From a virus, in IMG/VR virus record IMGVR_UViG_3300021425_000032, positions 1 through 64,000 of that record: a stretch of 64,000 bases of DNA; one strand, 5' to 3'. The stretch's first letter is position 1, and each line of letters starts with the position of its first letter. The translations under genes and the position numbers were made by a program. Shown here one piece after another: positions 944-54,661 of this stretch. Below the pieces are notes generated by a model, which saw only the letters and a program-made list of their open reading frames with translations, did no database searches and had not been told where the DNA came from.

Positions 944-2659
944 ATGAGAAAAATTTTTAGTATTCCTCTAAATCCTAAGTTATCAAACGAACAATATGTA
1001 GAGTTTGTTAATTTTATTAGAGAGTACAAAGATCACATTAAAGATGTATATTTTACATGCAGAATTGCTCCGTTTGCACAAGATGCTATGGGCGATATCT
1101 TTGTACAAGATGAAGACTACAAGTTAGCCATTGAGCAAGCAGTGTTTGTACAACAACAAACAGGCGTCCCAGTGAGTGCTACATTTAATAACATTCAAGT
1201 CCCGCCTAGTCAAAAAAACTTAGATACATTTATAAAAAACTTTAAACCTGTTTACGATGCTGGTGTACGTATTGCAACTATTCCGCATACACATTGGATG
1301 GCAACAGGACAGATACAAAAAGCATTTCCTGAATTATACATAAAAAATACTATACTACGAGATGTTAGAGTAGCATCAGAAATTGTAAGTTTAGCAAAGT
1401 ACGGATTTGATTATATAAACCTTGACAGAGATCTTATGCGTGATAGAGACACGCTAAAAAGATTACTTGAAGCAAAAGTTTGGATTAAGGAAAATTACGG
1501 TAAAGACATACACTATAGTTTGTTAGCAAACGAAGGTTGCAAAGGCAACTGTCCAATGATGGTTGAACACTTTGAATATAATAATACTAGAGCAGGTCAA
1601 GAACCTCAATATTTTAATAACCCTATTAGTAGAGTAAGTTGTCCTAAGTGGGATGTTGATGATCCTAGCATACATTTAAAAACAGCCAATATTACTCCTT
1701 GGAGAGAAGATTGGGAAGAATACTTAGACGAACTAGGTATAGATGTTTTTAAAATGCACGGCCGTGAAGCAGTAAGTAGATTGTATGAAACAATGAATAT
1801 TGTAAAACGTTGGGCATCAGGTGAACCATTACTATACGACAACTTTGAAAAATATTTAGAAAGTACAAATCTTAAAGATAGGCCAATTGATGCTTGGCGT
1901 AAGAAAATTAAAAATTGTAAATTTGATTGTTGGGAATGCCATTTTTGTGATGACATTTACAAAGTAAAATCTAAAATTGAACACACAGACAAAGTTAAGC
2001 ATGTAGCAGAAAGCATATTAATAAGCGGTGTGCCAACTGTAAATACACGTATACCTGGACTTACAAGTCCTAGAGTACAAACTGTATTAAATCATATTGC
2101 AAGCGGATCTACACATTACATGGAAGTGGGCGTAGCACAAGGTGCAACATTTTGTGGAGCAATTAAAGATAATAATTTAAATGCTGTAGCAATTGATGAT
2201 TGGCAAAGTGATATACAACCTGCTGATCCAAATGCTCCAAGATTACCGCATAACGAAAAGGCTAATTTCTTAAAAAACTTAGACAGTTACAAACAAGAAA
2301 ATAATGTAGAAGTAATTGATAAAGATTTATTTGAAGCAGATGTGTCACAGTATAACGGTAAGATAGACATGTGGTTTTATGACGGACCACACGATGCAAC
2401 AAGTACTGAACAGGCTGTACTACATTATAAAAATGTGTTTGCTAAAGAGGCTGTGTTAATCTTTGATGATGCAAATTGGCAAGGTGTAGTTGAAGGTGCA
2501 AGAACCGGTATTAACAAAGCAGGCTTTGAAGTTGCATATGAAAAGATGCTATTGTGTGACGTAGAAGATTTAGAAAGTTGGTGGAATGGTTTGTATGTTG
2601 TTGTACTTGCTAAACCAGAAGAAGAATTAATATCAATAATAGAGGAAGTAGAATGGTAA
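944..2659 (+). CDS. U32-peptidase-like / SAM methyltransferase fusion
   Basis: A 571-residue two-domain protein. Residues 1-340 resemble the peptidase U32 family, TIM-barrel proteins with Fe-S clusters that includes RNA hydroxylases and UbiU/UbiV. The segment around residues 260-275 (LDELGIDVFKMHGRE) matches the family signature, and seven Cys lie in cluster-like spacing (C199-x3-C203, C233, C325-x3-C329-x2-C332-x2-C335). Residues 390-560 look like a class I methyltransferase of the Methyltransf_24 type, with glycine-rich motif EVGVAQGATF near 394 and acidic FYDGPHD and IFDDANW segments. It leads an operon with a halogenase and an oxygenase (8-base overlap with the halogenase). Domain assignment is by eye; the substrate is unknown, RNA or a small molecule being equally possible. 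Confidence 0.65.
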   Translation: MRKIFSIPLNPKLSNEQYVEFVNFIREYKDHIKDVYFTCRIAPFAQDAMGDIFVQDEDYKLAIEQAVFVQQQTGVPVSATFNNIQVPPSQKNLDTFIKNFKPVYDAGVRIATIPHTHWMATGQIQKAFPELYIKNTILRDVRVASEIVSLAKYGFDYINLDRDLMRDRDTLKRLLEAKVWIKENYGKDIHYSLLANEGCKGNCPMMVEHFEYNNTRAGQEPQYFNNPISRVSCPKWDVDDPSIHLKTANITPWREDWEEYLDELGIDVFKMHGREAVSRLYETMNIVKRWASGEPLLYDNFEKYLESTNLKDRPIDAWRKKIKNCKFDCWECHFCDDIYKVKSKIEHTDKVKHVAESILISGVPTVNTRIPGLTSPRVQTVLNHIASGSTHYMEVGVAQGATFCGAIKDNNLNAVAIDDWQSDIQPADPNAPRLPHNEKANFLKNLDSYKQENNVEVIDKDLFEADVSQYNGKIDMWFYDGPHDATSTEQAVLHYKNVFAKEAVLIFDDANWQGVVEGARTGINKAGFEVAYEKMLLCDVEDLESWWNGLYVVVLAKPEEELISIIEEVEW

Positions 2660-4161
2660 GAAAGATAGTTATATTTGGCGGCGGCACAAGCGGATGGCTT
2701 ACAGCTGCTTACTTAACTAATAATTTAGTAGACCCTGTTGAAATACAACTAATTGAAGATGCTTCAAAAGGACCAATTGGTGTGGGAGAAGGAACACAAC
2801 CACTTACGGCATCGTTCTTATACAAGTGTGGTATTAGTGCTAAAGACTGGATGAAGCCTAGTAATGCATCATTTAAATATGGTGTAGAATTAACAGGTTG
2901 GAATGACGAACCTTATTTTGTTGACAATGATGTAGTTGACAATGTTTTACCAGCACCTCATCTTCCTGTAAGTAAATATTTTATTGACAAGCCGTATAGT
3001 GAATTTAAAAAGTGGCATCCTGCATATAGACTAGCAAAGAATAATACTGCTACAAAAATTGATAGTGAAACTGATATTAATTTTAATGTAGGACTAGATA
3101 GTTACGGTGCTGTACATTTTAGTGCATACGATATTATTGATACAATTAAAAAGTTAATATTAGATAGAATTGATTACGTTGATACTAAGATCACACAAGT
3201 TGGTAATGATGCAACTGGTATAACTAAACTTATAGACGAAACTGGCAAAGAGTATACTGGAGACTTGTATATAGACTGTAGCGGATTTCAATCTTTGCTG
3301 TTAGGTAAAACTTTAAAAGAGCCGTATATAAGTTACAACAAATGGCTACTCAACGATAGTGCTGTTGCTATGCCAAAACAGTATACTGATCCGGAAGAAG
3401 AATGTTTTCCTTATACTAAAGCAACTACTATGAATGCTGGATGGAGATGGACTATTCCTACATACCATCGTATTGGTAACGGATATGTTTATAGTTCTAA
3501 ACATATTACTCCTGAAGAAGCCGAGGCAGAATTACGTGAAGCAATTGGCGAATACGATGCTCCTGCAAATCATTTAAAAATGCGTATAGGCTCGCACGAA
3601 AATGTTGCTGTAAAAAATGTTCTTGCTGTAGGCCTTTCAGCTGGATTTATAGAACCCTTAGAAGCAACAGGTATTACATTTACTACAGCACTAGTTACAT
3701 CTTTTGCTGACTTAATGAATCGTACAGGTAACGTGTGGGACGATGGACCAAAGTCGATGATTAATAGAGGCTTTTATGAAATGAGTATAGAAATACTAAC
3801 CTTCATATATGCACACTATTATTTTAGTAATAGAAATGACACACCATATTGGCAAGAAATAAGATCAAAGACATTAGACGAACTTCCGGCAGATGCTAGA
3901 ATGATGATGAGTCAGTATTATCCTAAATTACAAGACTTTATATTCTTTACGCCTGGTAGTATGTTTAGTAGTATTCAATGGTGGTCAATGTTACATGCAG
4001 GCGGTGCATATCCAAATGAAAAATGTGAGCTGTCAGAACAACAAAAGAAATATGTTGAACACTTTATGAAAGTACAAGATGTAAGGGTTGATAGTGCCAA
4101 AGAGTTATTTGGCAATCACTATAAATTTTTAGATAAATGGTACAAAGAATGGCAAGAGTAA
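2653..4161 (+). CDS. Flavin-dependent tryptophan-halogenase family protein
   Basis: A 502-residue FADH2-dependent halogenase. It has the Rossmann motif GGGTSGW (residues 9-15), GVGEGTQP (43-50), the conserved Lys of the NASFK segment (K75), the signature WRWTIP (264-269) that blocks NADPH use in this family, and GLSAGFIEPLEATG (327-340). All hallmark motifs are intact and the length is normal, so activity is likely. A marine cyanophage halogenase of this family (VirX1 of phage Syn10) has been shown to iodinate diverse substrates, so this may be a relative. It overlaps both neighbours and sits in an operon with a methyltransferase fusion and an oxygenase. The substrate cannot be read from sequence; no flavin reductase is seen nearby. 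Confidence 0.92.
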   Translation: MVRKIVIFGGGTSGWLTAAYLTNNLVDPVEIQLIEDASKGPIGVGEGTQPLTASFLYKCGISAKDWMKPSNASFKYGVELTGWNDEPYFVDNDVVDNVLPAPHLPVSKYFIDKPYSEFKKWHPAYRLAKNNTATKIDSETDINFNVGLDSYGAVHFSAYDIIDTIKKLILDRIDYVDTKITQVGNDATGITKLIDETGKEYTGDLYIDCSGFQSLLLGKTLKEPYISYNKWLLNDSAVAMPKQYTDPEEECFPYTKATTMNAGWRWTIPTYHRIGNGYVYSSKHITPEEAEAELREAIGEYDAPANHLKMRIGSHENVAVKNVLAVGLSAGFIEPLEATGITFTTALVTSFADLMNRTGNVWDDGPKSMINRGFYEMSIEILTFIYAHYYFSNRNDTPYWQEIRSKTLDELPADARMMMSQYYPKLQDFIFFTPGSMFSSIQWWSMLHAGGAYPNEKCELSEQQKKYVEHFMKVQDVRVDSAKELFGNHYKFLDKWYKEWQE

Positions 4162-34035: not shown

Positions 34036-34812
34036 ATGGAACGCATTGTATTAGTCACTGGTGGCTTCGACCCACTACACTCCGGGCATATAGCCTATTT
34101 TAAAGAAGCAAAAAAACTTGGCACTAAACTAATTGTTGGTGTTAATTCAGACGACTGGCTTACACGTAAAAAAGGTAGACCATTTATGCCTTGGGAAGAA
34201 CGTGCAACAATAATTCAAGAACTATCTATTGTAGATGAAGTTATAAGTTTTGACGACACTGACAATTCTGCTAATAATGCAATATACAAGTGTCTTGCAA
34301 AATATAAAGATACAAAAATATGTTTTGCTAACGGCGGAGACAGGACAGATTTCACAACGCCTGAATACAAAATTTACGGAAAAACTCCGTGGGTAGATTT
34401 TGAATTTGGAGTTGGTGGCAAAGACAAAAAAAATTCTAGTAGTTGGATACTTGATGAATGGAAGAATCCAAAGACTATTAGAGAATGGGGTTGGTATAGA
34501 GTCTTAGACGATCAACCTGAAAAAGGATACAAGGTTAAAGAACTTGTAATACTTCCAGGCAAAAGTTTAAGTGATCAAAGACACAAATATAGATCAGAAA
34601 TGTGGTATGTGACACAAGGACAAGTTACTATGGCTATTCAAATAGAAGGTGATCCTCTTACTGGATTTGAATTGCCTGCATTAGTTAATGGTTATAATAT
34701 AGGATCAAATATATGGCACAAAGCAATAAACAATCAAGATGTGCCAGCACATGTCATTGAAGTACAATTTGGTGAAAAGTGTGTTGAAGAAGATATAGAA
34801 AGAAGAGATTAA
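34036..34812 (+). CDS. Cytidylyltransferase-like / mannose-isomerase-type cupin fusion
   Basis: A 258-residue fusion. Residues 1-135 are a nucleotidyltransferase of the RfaE/TagD type: GGFDPLHSGHIAYFKEAKKLG (HxGH), KLIVGVNSDDWL, WEERATIIQEL and NGGDRTD. Residues 155-258 match the C-terminal cupin of GDP-mannose pyrophosphorylase/phosphomannose isomerase: WGWYRVLDDQPEKGYKVKEL, GKSLSDQRHKYRSEMWYVTQG, HVIEVQFGEKCVEEDIERRD. It would activate a sugar or sugar-alcohol phosphate with a nucleotide and possibly isomerise or bind its partner sugar. The combination is unusual; the exact product is unknown. Confidence 0.8.
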   Translation: MERIVLVTGGFDPLHSGHIAYFKEAKKLGTKLIVGVNSDDWLTRKKGRPFMPWEERATIIQELSIVDEVISFDDTDNSANNAIYKCLAKYKDTKICFANGGDRTDFTTPEYKIYGKTPWVDFEFGVGGKDKKNSSSWILDEWKNPKTIREWGWYRVLDDQPEKGYKVKELVILPGKSLSDQRHKYRSEMWYVTQGQVTMAIQIEGDPLTGFELPALVNGYNIGSNIWHKAINNQDVPAHVIEVQFGEKCVEEDIERRD

Positions 34813-48695: not shown

Positions 48696-48874
48696 GACAT
48701 AAAATAGCAGGAGTAATTTTTTTACTGTTAGGTATATACTTTTTGTACCAAGACACAATGCCAATGCACGGCAATACACTTTTAGGCATAGGAGAAATGA
48801 CTTGGATGTGGTTTACAATGGCCGTAGTACATTTCTTTATACGTGATTGTAATTGCAAGGAGTGTTGCAAATGA
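48692..48874 (+). CDS. Small membrane protein
   Basis: A 60-residue protein with two hydrophobic segments (IAGVIFLLLGIYFLYQ and MTWMWFTMAVVHFFI) and a Cys-rich tail (CNCKECC). It overlaps both neighbours by four bases (ATGA). Likely inner membrane. The Cys tail may bind metal. Confidence 0.75.
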   Translation: MRHKIAGVIFLLLGIYFLYQDTMPMHGNTLLGIGEMTWMWFTMAVVHFFIRDCNCKECCK

Positions 48875-49647
48875 GAATAATTGCAGGGCCATGCCAACAC
48901 GAATCACTAGATAAAAGTTATGAAATTGCTAAAGAATGTAAACGTGTGTGCGATAAACTTGGCATTGAGTATTATTTCAAAGCAAGTTATGATAAAGCAA
49001 ATCGCACAAGTGCATCTGGTATCCGCGGACAAGGATTGCCTGCAACGATGGCAGACTTTCGCACATTAAAAGAAAAGTTAAATATTAAAACACTAACAGA
49101 TGTACACAATCAAAATGAAATATTAAAGATTGGTGCATATTATGATGACGCTGTTGATGTTATACAGATACCTGCATTTCTTTGTAGACAAACAGACTTA
49201 ATAAAAGCTGCATGTAAAACAGGTAAAATAGTAAATATAAAAAAGGGTCAGTTCTTAGCACCTTGGGATATGAAAGGTGTACTAAGTAAAACTGAAGGTG
49301 CAAAAGAAGTTTGGATAACTGAACGAGGAACTAGTTTTGGATATAACACTCTTGTCGTGGATTTCACTGGTCTACAGTATATGCTTGATAATTATGATGT
49401 GCCTATCGTGTTGGATGGCACTCACGCAGTACAGAAGCCGGGAGGACAGGGTGACTCTAGTGGCGGTAATCGTAATTATGTCCCTGGGCTCGTTCGTGCT
49501 GGGTCTGCTCTTGGGATCGACTCCTTCTTTATGGAAGTCCATGCTGACCCTGATGTAGCACCTAGTGATGGTCCTAACATGCTATACTTAAAAGACTTTG
49601 AGGAGGTGGTACGTGACATCGTCAGCTATTCATATGAGAAACTGTAG
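48871..49647 (+). CDS. kdsA: Kdo-8-phosphate synthase KdsA
   Basis: A 258-residue enzyme that condenses PEP with arabinose-5-phosphate to make Kdo-8-P, the core sugar of Gram-negative lipopolysaccharide and some capsules. Family motifs: AGPCQHES, FKASYDKANRT, VIQIPAFLCRQTDL, NIKKGQFLAPWDM, TERGTSFGYNTLVVD, LDGTHAVQKPGG and FFMEVHADPDVAPSDG. The Cys in GPC marks the metal-dependent class. About 20 residues shorter than typical bacterial KdsA. The second half has C-ending codons unlike its neighbours. No CMP-Kdo synthetase was seen. Confidence 0.95.
   Translation: MRIIAGPCQHESLDKSYEIAKECKRVCDKLGIEYYFKASYDKANRTSASGIRGQGLPATMADFRTLKEKLNIKTLTDVHNQNEILKIGAYYDDAVDVIQIPAFLCRQTDLIKAACKTGKIVNIKKGQFLAPWDMKGVLSKTEGAKEVWITERGTSFGYNTLVVDFTGLQYMLDNYDVPIVLDGTHAVQKPGGQGDSSGGNRNYVPGLVRAGSALGIDSFFMEVHADPDVAPSDGPNMLYLKDFEEVVRDIVSYSYEKL
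49337..49558 (+). CDS. Nested membrane-protein ORF inside kdsA (candidate)
   Basis: An out-of-frame ORF of 73 residues inside kdsA, from TTG 49337 with GAGGAA 6 bases upstream. It has two hydrophobic segments (LLSWISLVYSICLIIMMCL near residue 5 and VTLVAVIVIMSLGSFVLGLLLG near 38) with RSREDR between, a holin- or hairpin-like layout. The kdsA codons in just this stretch switch to C- and G-ending choices, as if fitting two frames. It could still be chance, so confidence is low. Confidence 0.3.
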   Translation: MDITLLSWISLVYSICLIIMMCLSCWMALTQYRSREDRVTLVAVIVIMSLGSFVLGLLLGSTPSLWKSMLTLM

Positions 49648-50258: not shown

Positions 50259-50934
50259 TAAACCTTACGTATGTGAATACTGTGGCACAGGTTATTCAAG
50301 AGAAAAGACTCTTGCTGTACATATGTGTGAACAGAAACGTAGGCATTTACAAAAAAATGAAAAGAGAGTTACATTAGGTTTCTATGCCTTTAATCAGTTT
50401 TACAAATTAAGTGCAGGCGCAAGAAAAGATAAAACATATCAAGAGTTTTGTAAAAGTCCTTACTACAATGCGTTTGTAAAGTTTGGTAGTTTTGTCAACA
50501 ATGTAAAACCGTTATATCCTGAGAAGTATGTCGACCATGTAGTAACATCAGGTGTTAAACTTGACCATTGGTGTCGAGAAGAAATGTATGAAAAATATGC
50601 TATTGAACTTATTCGTAAAGAAGGTGTTGAAACAGCACTAGAACGTAGTGTTATGACTATGATGGAATGGGCAGAAGAAAATAATAGTGTATGGAATCAT
50701 TATTTCTTTTATTGTAGTTTAAATCGTGCAGCATGGCATATTAAAGATGGTAAGATAAGTCCTTGGCTTGTATTAAATTGTAAGAGCGGAAAAGAGATGC
50801 TAAGTAAGTTTAGTGATGAACAACTAAACATAATCTTTCATATTATGGATCCTCAGCACTGGGCTATGCGTTTTAAACGTAACCCTGCTGATGTATTACT
50901 AGTAAAAGAAGTTGCAAAAGAATCGAATCTATGA
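50236..50934 (+). CDS. C2H2-like zinc-finger protein
   Basis: A 232-residue protein from ATG 50236. The N-terminus has YVCEYCGTGYSREKTLAVHMCEQKRRH, a C2H2-type finger (Cys-x2-Cys then two His/Cys). The rest (residues 45-230) is helical with conserved-looking FYKLSAGARKDKTYQEFCKSPYYNAFVKFG and IDPQHW-like segment; unknown. The finger suggests DNA binding or an RNA polymerase or replication partner. It overlaps both neighbours. Confidence 0.72.
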   Translation: MTSKSNSNKPYVCEYCGTGYSREKTLAVHMCEQKRRHLQKNEKRVTLGFYAFNQFYKLSAGARKDKTYQEFCKSPYYNAFVKFGSFVNNVKPLYPEKYVDHVVTSGVKLDHWCREEMYEKYAIELIRKEGVETALERSVMTMMEWAEENNSVWNHYFFYCSLNRAAWHIKDGKISPWLVLNCKSGKEMLSKFSDEQLNIIFHIMDPQHWAMRFKRNPADVLLVKEVAKESNL

Positions 50935-51635
50935 AGCTAGACAAGCATCAATATACGCGAGAAGAATGGCGTAGAGTACGTCACTTCCGCCGTCTAGAAA
51001 AAGAACAAAATAAAATAAAAGAAGAAAAGCAAAAAAAATTAGAACGTAATTGTGCATTTATAATAAGTCAACCTAAAGCAGGAACATACTTACTTGCAAA
51101 TTTACTCGCAAACTTTGGCATGTATTCAACAGGGTGGCATGTAAAAAATGGCAAGTATAGAGTATACGATATAAGAAAACCCCTTCCAAAATTCGAAAAG
51201 AAACGTGATCTAAAAAAATATATACAAAGTGTAACATTTCAAATAGGTGGCTTTAGTGAAATAATAGACTCTATACCACACAACGGATTTGCACAAGGAC
51301 ATTTAGAATATCAAGGCAAGTATATTAAACCTCTGAGGGGAGTAAAAAAGATTTTATTAACACGACCGCATGATCAGCATAAGCAATCTATAAAAAGATT
51401 TCAAGATGAAATGCACGGTGACACAGCGGTAACAGAAGAAGCATATCATAATATAGCAGGTTGGGCAGAACATGAAGATGTTTTTCATTTAACATTTAAT
51501 GATCTTATCAAACCTAGATATGCAAAACTAAGAAAACTTCAAACGTTTTTGTTTGGAGAAGTAATTTGTGATGAAGTACAAGCAATACAAAAAGCACTTG
51601 CAAGTCCATCACCAACCAAAAGCAGTATAAGATGA
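50931..51635 (+). CDS. Sulfotransferase-like protein
   Basis: A 234-residue protein with a charged N-terminal helix (LEKEQNKIKEEKQKK). AFIISQPKAGTYLLANLLANFGM is placed and spaced like the 5'-phosphosulfate-binding loop (SYPKSGTTWL) of PAPS sulfotransferases, and KKILLTRPHDQHKQS fits the 3'-phosphate loop with its Arg. Directly followed by an APS kinase (4-base overlap), which supports PAPS use. Acceptor unknown; a surface glycan is plausible. Confidence 0.7.
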   Translation: MKLDKHQYTREEWRRVRHFRRLEKEQNKIKEEKQKKLERNCAFIISQPKAGTYLLANLLANFGMYSTGWHVKNGKYRVYDIRKPLPKFEKKRDLKKYIQSVTFQIGGFSEIIDSIPHNGFAQGHLEYQGKYIKPLRGVKKILLTRPHDQHKQSIKRFQDEMHGDTAVTEEAYHNIAGWAEHEDVFHLTFNDLIKPRYAKLRKLQTFLFGEVICDEVQAIQKALASPSPTKSSIR

Positions 51636-52057
51636 AAATATTAATTTTTGGTCTGCCAGGTAGCGGTAAGAGTACACTAGCAAAACCATTTGCAGACTTA
51701 ATAGGCGGCGTACATATAAACGCAGACGAAGTGCGTACTAAGTATAATGATTGGGACTTTACACCCGAAGGACGTATTAGACAAGCACAACGTATGAGAT
51801 ATCTAGCAGACGGTGTAGTAATGGCAGGTAAAGTTGCTGTAGCAGACTTTGTATGTCCTACTGAAAAAGCACGTTTAGAGTTTGGCCCAGATTATACAGT
51901 TTGGATGGATACTATTAAAGAAGGTAGATTTGAAGATACAAACGCTATGTTTGAAAAACCTAACAAGGTTGATTATCATGTAGCAAATTGGTTTGCTGAT
52001 ACACATACACAACTTATGCCTGTTGTAAAAAGATGGATGGAGAAAAATAATGTTTGA
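51632..52057 (+). CDS. Adenylylsulfate (APS) kinase-like CysC
   Basis: A 141-residue P-loop kinase: GLPGSGKSTLAKPFADL (Walker A), HINADEVRTKYNDWDFTPEGRIRQAQRMRYLADGVV, and AVADFVCPTEKARLEF match the APS-kinase pattern, including the IxADxxR and switch-like FVCPTEKxR motif. CysC is normally about 200 residues, so it is short at the C-terminus, where WMDTIKEGRFEDTNAMFEKP still parallels the family. It would turn APS into PAPS, the donor for the neighbouring sulfotransferase. Confidence 0.8.
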   Translation: MKILIFGLPGSGKSTLAKPFADLIGGVHINADEVRTKYNDWDFTPEGRIRQAQRMRYLADGVVMAGKVAVADFVCPTEKARLEFGPDYTVWMDTIKEGRFEDTNAMFEKPNKVDYHVANWFADTHTQLMPVVKRWMEKNNV

Positions 52058-52460
52058 TCCAAGTAAACCAACAACACAGATGTTAGGTAGATGGCAACCT
52101 TGGCATGATGGTCATACAGAACTATTTAAACGTGCATATGCAGAAACAGGACAAGTTGTAATAATGGTACGTACAGTATTTGGTTACATAGGACAAGACG
52201 CAGGCGCAGGACGTACAGTAGTTCAAGATGATAATCCATTTAACTTCCAAGATGTTGTAGACGGTATTAAATCTGGATTGTCAAAAGCAGGATTTGTTAT
52301 TAACAAAGACTACATGATTATGCAAGTGCCTAACATTGTAGATATAAGTTATGGTAGAGGTGTAGGATATACATTCACAGAACATGACTTAGGAAAAGAA
52401 GTACACGACATTAGTGCTACAAAGATAAGGGCACAAATGCGTAAGGAAGGAAAACTATAA
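52050..52460 (+). CDS. Minimal adenylyltransferase, candidate ATP-sulfurylase-like
   Basis: A 136-residue nucleotidyltransferase: LGRWQPWHDGHTELFKRA is the HxGH-type motif and DISATKIRAQMRKEGKL the ISxTxxR motif. Both occur in ATP sulfurylase, but the whole enzyme is about a third of the usual length, and other adenylyltransferases (NMN, PPAT) share them. Genomic context (APS kinase overlapping by 8 bases, sulfotransferase) makes ATP sulfurylase the most attractive reading, which remains inference. Confidence 0.6.
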   Translation: MFDPSKPTTQMLGRWQPWHDGHTELFKRAYAETGQVVIMVRTVFGYIGQDAGAGRTVVQDDNPFNFQDVVDGIKSGLSKAGFVINKDYMIMQVPNIVDISYGRGVGYTFTEHDLGKEVHDISATKIRAQMRKEGKL

Positions 52461-52970: not shown

Positions 52971-54110
52971 ATGGATACTCGTATACACGAGATTTTAGAT
53001 AAAGAAGTAGATAGACAGGCTACTACAGTCGAATTAATAGCAAGTGAAAACTTTGCTAGTGCCAGCGTTATGAAACTAAGTGGCAGTGTGTTTACAAACA
53101 AATACGCTGAGGGTTATCCAGGCAAGCGTTACTATAATGGTTGCGAGCATATGGACGAGATAGAAGCACTTGCTGTAGACGAACTATGTAAGTTGTTTAA
53201 GTGTAACTATGCCAATGTACAACCACACTGTGGTGCAAATGCTAACACAGCAGTGTACCAAGCATTCCTAAATCCAGGTGATAGTATACTAGGAATGGAT
53301 CTAGCAAGTGGAGGACACCTAAGCCACGGAAGCCCACCAAACATTTCAGGCAAGGTGTATAGTGCATGTAGTTACGGCGTAAAAGAAGACGGTTATTTAG
53401 ACTACGATAAAATAGAATGGATGACCAAAGAATATCGTCCTAAAATGATTATTGCAGGTGCAAGTGCATATCCTAGACAGATCAATTGGGAAGTATTTAG
53501 AAAGATAGCAGACAAGTATGGTGCATTACTGTTAGTTGACATGGCGCACTACAGCGGTCTTATAGCAGGCGGAGCATACCAGTCGCCACTAGCATATGCG
53601 GACGTAGTTACAAGTACAACACACAAGACCTTACGCGGTCCTAGAGGTGGTATTATACTATGGAACAACCCAGAGTACACACGTAAAATCAATAGTGCAA
53701 TTTTTCCTGGCACACAAGGCGGACCATTGATGAATCAAATTGCAGCCAAAGCACAATGTTTCATAGAAGCAAATACACCCGAGTTTAAAGACTATGCAAA
53801 GCAAGTTGTTAAAAATGCAAAAGCCATGTGTGTTGTGTTTAAGGACAAAGGATTTAAATGCTTGACAAATGGAACAGATTCGCATATAATATTATTAGAT
53901 TTAAGTAATAGCAAATATAGCGGAAGAGAGGCTGCTGACTTGTTGGAAGAAAACGGTATTACTGTAAACAAGAACGGTGTACCAAATGACCCAAGAAGTT
54001 TTGTAGAAACAAGTGGTATTAGAATTGGAACAGCAGCAGAAACAACTCGCGGTCATGATGAAAAATGGTTTAAGGAATTAGCGGAAAAAATATGCCAGAT
54101 ATTGACATAG
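52971..54110 (+). CDS. glyA: Serine hydroxymethyltransferase GlyA
   Basis: A 379-residue PLP enzyme converting serine and tetrahydrofolate to glycine and 5,10-methylene-THF, feeding thymidylate synthesis. Motifs: ELIASENFAS, TNKYAEGYPGKRYYNGCE, QPHCGANANTAVY, VDMAHYSGLIAGG and the PLP-Lys site TSTTHKTLRGPRGG are all intact. Bacterial GlyA is about 415, so roughly 35-40 C-terminal residues are missing, ending at KELAEKICQILT; the active-site part is complete. It overlaps the mini-DnaE gene by 19 bases. Confidence 0.95.
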   Translation: MDTRIHEILDKEVDRQATTVELIASENFASASVMKLSGSVFTNKYAEGYPGKRYYNGCEHMDEIEALAVDELCKLFKCNYANVQPHCGANANTAVYQAFLNPGDSILGMDLASGGHLSHGSPPNISGKVYSACSYGVKEDGYLDYDKIEWMTKEYRPKMIIAGASAYPRQINWEVFRKIADKYGALLLVDMAHYSGLIAGGAYQSPLAYADVVTSTTHKTLRGPRGGIILWNNPEYTRKINSAIFPGTQGGPLMNQIAAKAQCFIEANTPEFKDYAKQVVKNAKAMCVVFKDKGFKCLTNGTDSHIILLDLSNSKYSGREAADLLEENGITVNKNGVPNDPRSFVETSGIRIGTAAETTRGHDEKWFKELAEKICQILT

Positions 54111-54661
54111 ACTTTGCAGACAGAGATGTTATATTAAACAAGATACAACATCGTATTGCAAAGTTAGATACAGGTAAAAAACACAATACAGGAGTCTACG
54201 TAACAGAGGCTCCTCACAATCCTGTTGATAATATATGTACAATAGATCATAAAACCGCAGAAGATCGTGGTTACTTTAAACTAGATTTTTTAAATGTGTC
54301 TATATACAAAGACGTTAGAGACGAGGCACATTTACAAGAACTTATGGAAAGGAAACCAATATGGCAACTACTGGAGCACAAAGACTTCGTCGACAAAGTA
54401 TTTCATCTAGGCGGGCACGACACTCTCTTAAAGCAATTGAAGCCTACCTCGGTCGAGCAATTGGCCGCAACACTAGCAATAATACGTCCAGCAAAGAGAC
54501 ACTTAGCAGAAAAGAGCTGGAACGAAATATTCAACGAAGTTTGGGTAAAGCCGACAAACGGTGAATACTATTTTAAAAAAGCACATGCTGTAAGTTATGC
54601 AATGGCCGTTGTTGTGCATATGAATTTACTATGTGAGCAACTCGATGCTTCACAAGATTAA
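54092..54661 (+). CDS. Miniature DnaE-like (PolIII alpha, C-family) palm protein
   Basis: A 189-residue protein colinear with parts of bacterial DNA polymerase III alpha. MPDIDIDFADRDVIL matches the PDFDVDFxxxRDxVI palm motif (D5, D7 as D401, D403 of E. coli); KKHNTGVYVTEAP matches KHAGGVVIAP; FKLDFLN matches VKFDFLG (D65 as D555); VFHLGGHDTLLKQLKPTSVEQLAATLAIIRP matches the fingers segment; KKAHAVSYAM matches NKSHSAAYAL. So all three catalytic Asp remain in a sixth of the usual length, without PHP or tail domains. It starts inside glyA. Could be active, a regulator or a remnant. Confidence 0.8.
   Translation: MPDIDIDFADRDVILNKIQHRIAKLDTGKKHNTGVYVTEAPHNPVDNICTIDHKTAEDRGYFKLDFLNVSIYKDVRDEAHLQELMERKPIWQLLEHKDFVDKVFHLGGHDTLLKQLKPTSVEQLAATLAIIRPAKRHLAEKSWNEIFNEVWVKPTNGEYYFKKAHAVSYAMAVVVHMNLLCEQLDASQD
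54361..54564 (+). CDS. Nested basic ORF inside mini-DnaE gene (candidate)
   Basis: An out-of-frame ORF of 67 residues, very basic (QRLRRQSISSRRARH), starting at ATG 54361 with GGAAAGGA about 7 bases upstream. In this stretch the mini-DnaE frame switches to less common codons (TCG, GTC, GAG, AGC). Could be a small DNA-binding protein or chance. Confidence 0.3.
   Translation: MATTGAQRLRRQSISSRRARHSLKAIEAYLGRAIGRNTSNNTSSKETLSRKELERNIQRSLGKADKR

Follow-up and report, generated by a model that had tools for sequence, protein, structure and literature searches.

A putative PAPS-making gene pair of marine phages and the candidate minimal sulfate adenylyltransferase that it shares with SAR11 bacteria

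Three overlapping genes in a tailed phage

The window, i.e., the whole 64,000-nucleotide stretch of DNA that was analyzed, accounts for the greater part of an IMG/VR virus record of 65.6 kb. The virus is a tailed phage with genes for a tail sheath, a terminase, and a DnaB-like helicase. At 50931–52460, three plus-strand genes encode a sulfotransferase-like protein (ST), an APS-kinase-like protein (KIN), and a small nucleotidyltransferase (NT) (Table 1). The ORFs confirm that these genes overlap, as the first-pass annotation had stated, ST and KIN by 4 nt and KIN and NT by 8 nt. They lie within a longer run of overlapping genes, in which the preceding gene ends at 50934 and the following gene starts at 52460. 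Pairwise dN/dS values against close relatives range from 0.06 to 0.36 for ST, KIN, and NT, which indicates purifying selection on all three and, hence, that they are genuine genes. Relatives of NT are encoded on at least 598 IMG/VR stretches.

The window also contains glycosyltransferase-like, cytidylyltransferase-like, pyruvyltransferase-like, and KDO-8-phosphate synthase genes, with glycan-related genes located at 33–49 kb. The KDO-8-phosphate synthase gene scores over its curated cut-off (TIGR01362) and occupies the same place in close relatives. Elsewhere, a cytidylyltransferase-like domain is fused to a cupin of the mannose-6-phosphate isomerase type, one gene resembles flavin-dependent tryptophan halogenases (PF04820, E 4.5e-92), and a short piece of 189 residues resembles the fingers domain of DNA polymerase III alpha (phrog_11778), which suggests a split polymerase.

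Table 1. Features of the window. Conservation refers to alignments A1 (NT, 52 homologs), A2 (KIN, 44 relatives), and A4 (ST, 19 members, relatives from viral contigs)
Feature	Position	Strand	Remarks
ST	50931–51635	+	Sulfotransferase-like; 234-aa ORF
ST PKAGTY (residues 48–53)	51072–51089	+	5'-Phosphosulfate-binding-like motif; invariant in A4
KIN	51632–52057	+	APS-kinase-like; 141-aa ORF
KIN P-loop GLPGSGKS (residues 7–14)	51650–51673	+	G7-L8-P9-G10, G12, and K13 invariant in A2
NT	52050–52460	+	Nucleotidyltransferase; 136-aa ORF; candidate minimal sulfate adenylyltransferase
NT HxGH (H19-D-G-H22, within LGRWQPWHDGH)	52104–52115	+	H19, G21, and H22 invariant in A1
NT GR(G/D)VGY (residues 102–107)	52353–52370	+	Family signature; conserved in 23 diverse phage, SAR11, and SAR86 members; third position G or D
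NT ISATKIR (residues 121–127)	52410–52430	+	S122, A123, T124, and R127 invariant in A1
KDO-8-phosphate synthase gene	48853–49647		TIGR01362
Cytidylyltransferase-like/cupin fusion	34036–34812		
Tryptophan-halogenase-like gene	2653–4161		PF04820
DNA polymerase III alpha fingers-like piece	54092–54661		phrog_11778

Sequence and predicted fold of ST, KIN, and NT

The Pfam model Sulfotransfer_3 (PF13469) matches ST with an E value of 0.061 and 14 bits, which is under the gathering cut-off of 27. P48-K49-A50-G51-T52, R145, and S153 are invariant in all 19 sequences of A4, the arginine and the serine being eight residues apart. In cytosolic sulfotransferases, an R–S spacing of eight is that of the residues that bind the 3'-phosphate. 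The AlphaFold2 model of ST (pLDDT 88.6) gave PAP-bound sulfotransferases as best matches in Foldseek (E 2.6e-6), and sulfotransferases occupied the top rows in VIA-align (Z 12.3, rmsd 3.2, 167 residues aligned). ST thus combines the predicted fold of the P-loop PAPS-dependent sulfotransferase superfamily with its PKxGT/Arg/Ser motif. Because of the motifs and of the model matches to PAP-bound sulfotransferases, ST is predicted to be a divergent member of this P-loop PAPS-type superfamily and not of Pfam Sulfotransfer_3, in agreement with its first description as sulfotransferase-like. Compared with cytosolic sulfotransferases (SULT) and Pfam Sulfotransfer_1/_3, ST is alike in predicted fold, PKxGT loop, and R/S spacing at the 3'-phosphate site, but it is shorter, scores under the Pfam cut-offs, and belongs to a separate phage subfamily whose members end near an S-x-T-K motif. 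Since glycan-related genes and the KDO-8-phosphate synthase gene lie in the same phage region, a surface glycan is at most a plausible acceptor.

KIN, likewise described earlier as APS-kinase-like, matches Pfam APS_kinase (PF01583) over residues 3–82 with E 1.2e-6 and 29 bits, over the gathering score of 21.1. When the PDB was searched with the A2 profile, the best match was the APS kinase 2yvu (E 2.4e-11), numerous further APS kinases also ranked high, and the APS kinase domain of PAPSS1 was matched with E 5.8e-8. The score with the CysC equivalog TIGR00455 (21.2 bits) is far under the cut-off of 138.7, and the phage form of 141 residues does not have the lid segment found in normal APS kinases. 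For these two reasons, KIN is, judged by its sequence, APS-kinase-like and not a proven CysC. The KIN found beside aprABM in SAR11 (L164, L228, and L229) has 164 residues, including an inserted segment absent from the phage form that is perhaps a regained or ancestral lid.

The two motifs reported for NT in the first-pass annotation, HxGH and ISxTxxR, are H19-D-G-H22 and I121-S-A-T-K-I-R127, and their core is invariant in the 52 homologs of A1. Its remarks on the short lengths of KIN and NT also stand, given the missing lid in KIN and the 344–354 residues of the canonical ATP sulfurylases compared here, versus 136 in NT. NT scores 13.1 bits with the ATP sulfurylase model PF01747, and a SAR11 homolog 16.7 bits, under the cut-off of 24.3. 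NT contains neither QxRNPxHxxH nor GRDHAG, the ATP sulfurylase motifs whose RNP and GRD parts have been described previously (PMC3779200); it has GRWQPWHxGH and GR(G/D)VGY instead. As to the SGTxxR-type C-terminal motif of Sat, NT has ISATKIR, with A replacing G; similar motifs are common to many HIGH nucleotidyltransferases.

The closest curated model is that of the NMN adenylyltransferase PRK01153 (E 4.5e-6), with 26.3 bits versus a cut-off of 127, and another NMN adenylyltransferase model, TIGR01527, gave 19.9 bits versus 181.2. In the PDB, NT matched the NMN adenylyltransferase 1f9a (E 0.0053), and the NT motif fits the archaeal NMN adenylyltransferase motif GRxQPxHxGH well. A comparison of the NT profile with four canonical ATP sulfurylases and Escherichia coli NadR, uncalibrated because the templates were single sequences, gave nothing usable. 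The structure model of NT has a pLDDT of 75 and is weakest at residues 99–112, the site of the GR(G/D)VGY signature. It matches NMN and phosphopantetheine adenylyltransferases with Z ~9, and HldC is also among the matches. ATP sulfurylase is absent from this match list, which excludes nothing.

Taken together, NT shares with archaeal-type NMN adenylyltransferases (PRK01153 and TIGR01527) and phosphopantetheine adenylyltransferase the Rossmann nucleotidyltransferase fold and the GRxQPxHxGH and ISxTxxR-type motifs, but it is far under the curated cut-offs, has its own GR(G/D)VGY signature, and occurs in a context of sulfur genes. A specific match to either of these enzymes had been named as the check on the sulfate reading; the affinity to both is weak, none reaching a cut-off. 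NT is thus classified here, by its motifs and model scores, as a compact HIGH-superfamily nucleotidyltransferase outside the ATP-sulfurylase family. Sequence alone leaves the substrate open, because NT is not of the Sat family, its nearest NMN and phosphopantetheine adenylyltransferase matches are weak, and the model is of moderate quality; genome context, described later, suggests a role with sulfate and APS.

Action of NT on another acceptor is the main risk to the sulfate reading, and the leading rival is NAD salvage. KIN and NT would then be a split NadR-like system in which KIN phosphorylates nicotinamide riboside to give NMN and NT adenylylates NMN to give NAD, a pathway that could, for instance, replenish NAD in infected cells or counter an NAD-depleting defense. 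NAD-salvage genes are known in phages, and the KIN of SAR11 matches a NadR model over residues 2–126 (E 1.3e-4). The NT matches to NMN adenylyltransferases, by sequence and by fold, also favor this idea; however, their scores lie far under the curated cut-offs, the matched part is mainly the HxGH half of the protein, and KIN matches APS kinases far better. With the SAR11 data described in the next section, we regard NAD salvage as unlikely.

The KIN–NT pair in phages and NT in SAR11 genomes

KIN is present in approximately 71 of the 82 NT-bearing loci of the first set fetched, usually adjacent to or overlapping NT. KIN–NT is a single fused protein in phages of Stenotrophomonas, Xanthomonas, and Clavibacter, as well as in one SAR11 genome. 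PHROG 10255, which matches KIN with E 7.6e-36 and is annotated only as “kinase,” represents the same fused pair, since KIN matches positions 2–115 and NT positions 124–229 of its 230 positions, whereas in this phage the pair is split into two overlapping genes. Two of the phages with fused KIN–NT (L248, 1114–1809; L249, 1121–1831) have an annotated cysteine dioxygenase gene, a further gene of sulfur metabolism, ~3 kb upstream.

ST is distributed differently. The ST family was found in three of 25 KIN–NT phage contigs, some of which are fragments, and ST occurs without KIN–NT in L082–L087. Most KIN–NT phage contigs have no recognized sulfotransferase: across 17 phage contigs, Sulfotransfer_3 gave just two weak matches, both in G255, ~3 kb from KIN–NT, and in a Pfam scan of 139 neighbor proteins, the 25 families with the largest numbers of matching members included no sulfotransferase family. 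A search with ST of the annotated phage collection gave zero matches. In L037, a different sulfotransferase-like gene, with a PRCGST motif and no Pfam match, directly precedes KIN. The idea of the first-pass annotation that the three genes act as one compact sulfation cassette therefore has to be given up as far as a conserved unit is concerned; ST occurs in few KIN–NT phages and also elsewhere without KIN–NT, so the three-gene arrangement is one local combination. KIN–NT is a widespread marine-phage module, and ST is an occasional, not fixed, part.

A bacterial genome collection yielded 80 loci with an NT of 59–68% identity. Five of these seem to be phage contigs that ended up in bacterial bins, and the other 75 are chromosomal, mostly from SAR11 and related Alphaproteobacteria. 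In 72 of the 75 chromosomal loci, which include many close relatives and are not independent, AprA, AprB, AprM, CysQ, or Xsc is encoded within ~6 kb of NT; the three exceptions include loci from SAR86 (L187 and L192) and a gammaproteobacterial locus (L189). Representative neighbors score over the curated cut-offs for Xsc (TIGR03457), CysQ (TIGR01331), AprA (TIGR02061), and AprB (TIGR02060). More informative than this count is that the genes are arranged in several ways. The arrangement in L122 is Xsc...CysQ-KIN-NT, and CysQ and aprABM lie beside KIN–NT in L152, L228, and L229. Based on coordinates, NT and aprA are at most ~2.5 kb apart in at least 21 genomes. In the NT tree, the root of which is uncertain, one branch of SAR11 forms falls together with forms from phages, a grouping which suggests that NT may have been exchanged between SAR11 and phages. 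Two further patterns were seen in SAR11: KIN–NT beside an enoyl-CoA-hydratase-like gene and far from apr in many genomes (L218, L219, L224, and also L220), and a conserved 116-residue protein of unknown function encoded directly beside aprA (L217, 9200–9550; L164, 5520–5870; L228, 3066–3416).

In a second NT branch (L217 and L221), NT without KIN immediately precedes aprM-aprB-aprA, after which comes a gene for a TauE-type exporter. KIN was absent from ten SAR11 genomes chosen from this branch, which gave weak P-loop matches only. NT here stands where Allochromatium vinosum has sat, directly upstream of aprMBA in its sat-aprMBA operon (PMC3779200); the SAR11 operon differs in that NT is not of the Sat family and in the exporter gene that follows. 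The same position would fit equally well if NT were an ADP sulfurylase, converting APS and phosphate to ADP and sulfate and thereby ending sulfite oxidation in SAR11, with a different role beside KIN in phages. A nucleotidyltransferase bearing HxGH and ISxTxxR motifs normally works with ATP and pyrophosphate. This, and the fact that an ADP sulfurylase would not readily feed APS to the tightly linked phage KIN, makes us consider such an activity very improbable.

The glycan-related genes of the window bring to mind yet another role for KIN–NT, namely activation of another small acceptor, such as a sugar phosphate, a polyol, or a phosphoramidate, which would become an ADP- or CDP-linked donor in the synthesis of a phage glycan. 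Parallels exist in HldE and in the O-methyl phosphoramidate pathway of Campylobacter, where a CysC homolog phosphorylates a CDP-linked compound; CysC homologs with nonsulfate substrates are known. The HldC match of the NT model is in keeping with such a role, whereas the phage neighbor scan did not reveal one dominant sugar family, the SAR11 neighborhood is one of sulfur metabolism, and NT stands alone with aprMBA. We give a glycan-donor role a small chance, ranking it just after NAD salvage.

Presence and absence were scored in 198 Pelagibacterales genomes that passed a completeness filter of 85%. NT was found in 161, aprA in 164, and canonical PF01747 over the cut-off in ten. Both NT and aprA occur in 148 genomes, NT only in 13, aprA only in 16, and neither in 21, i.e., an odds ratio of 14.9 (Fisher p = 3e-10, uncorrected for shared ancestry). 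Among aprA-positive genomes without PF01747, 141/156 have NT. In a second order (n = 45), NT was found in 12 genomes, aprA in five, four of which have NT, and PF01747 in one. A few SAR11-order genomes (L208, L214, L215, and L216) encode a canonical but short ATP sulfurylase (344–354 residues) in a patchy pattern. NadD is encoded in 183 of the 198 genomes. A role for NT as the sole NMN adenylyltransferase of a SAR11 genome was thereby ruled out, and because NadD is so common, NT is not needed for this function. Together with the ties of NT to apr, cysQ, and xsc, and its position beside aprMBA in genomes that lack KIN, these numbers argue against NAD salvage.

A putative PAPS-making module

The reading that we favor, and consider fairly probable as a whole, is that NT is a minimal, nonorthologous sulfate adenylyltransferase, that KIN makes PAPS, and that ST is an optional PAPS user. 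NT (~125–136 residues, HIGH superfamily) would catalyze the reversible conversion of ATP and sulfate to APS and pyrophosphate, and KIN, given its similarity to APS kinases, would phosphorylate APS at the 3' position to yield PAPS. ST, by its predicted fold, may then pass the sulfuryl group of PAPS on to an acceptor, possibly a surface glycan. KIN–NT would be the core of the phage module and ST an optional downstream user. In animal PAPS synthase, an APS kinase domain is followed by an ATP sulfurylase domain. The KIN–NT fusions have the same kinase-then-nucleotidyltransferase order as this enzyme (PAPSS), but NT, with ~130 residues, has no room for the additional domains that ATP sulfurylases possess, and KIN has no lid.

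In SAR11, NT beside AprMBA probably works in the opposite direction, converting APS and pyrophosphate to ATP and sulfate after sulfite oxidation, and NT accompanied by KIN and CysQ probably also supports PAPS turnover. By function, NT thus most likely works like an ATP sulfurylase, though it is not a member of that family. That it defines a new minimal sulfate adenylyltransferase family, unrelated to Sat/CysDN at the family level, we hold to be only slightly better than an even bet.

A sulfate role is favored by the KIN–NT linkage and fusions, the apr/cysQ/xsc context, the co-occurrence of NT with aprA, the scarcity of PF01747, and the published gap in SAR11. Counted against it are the missing Sat motifs, a sequence and fold that point first to NMN and pantetheine adenylyltransferases, the many SAR11 KIN–NT pairs far from apr, the SAR86 loci with no such sulfur genes nearby, and the lack of a recognized sulfotransferase in most KIN–NT phage contigs. 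As for the earlier assignment of NT as the adenylyltransferase of a sulfation pathway, membership of the Sat family does not hold, whereas the SAR11 context (aprMBA, cysQ, xsc, scarce Sat, and NadD present) favors the proposed role with sulfate and APS. The pathway idea is therefore largely plausible, for a better reason, i.e., the SAR11 context, and with a different unit, KIN–NT.

According to a 2023 paper, ATP sulfurylase is missing from most SAR11 (PMC10356861), and Pelagibacter ubique is reported to be without sat and cysDNCHIJ, yet to have AprBA (PMC5069961). With APS reductase present and ATP sulfurylase mostly missing, it is unclear what becomes in SAR11 of the sulfite released from taurine and other organosulfur compounds. 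In the literature searched, we found no proposal of a phage KIN–NT, of an unusual SAR11 ATP sulfurylase, or of a substitute for it. If the favored reading is true, an NT of ~130 residues beside apr, roughly a third as large as the ATP sulfurylases compared here, would close this gap and give sulfite oxidation in SAR11 an ATP-yielding end. A compact module for making PAPS would then be widespread in marine viruses, some of which would add a sulfotransferase of their own.
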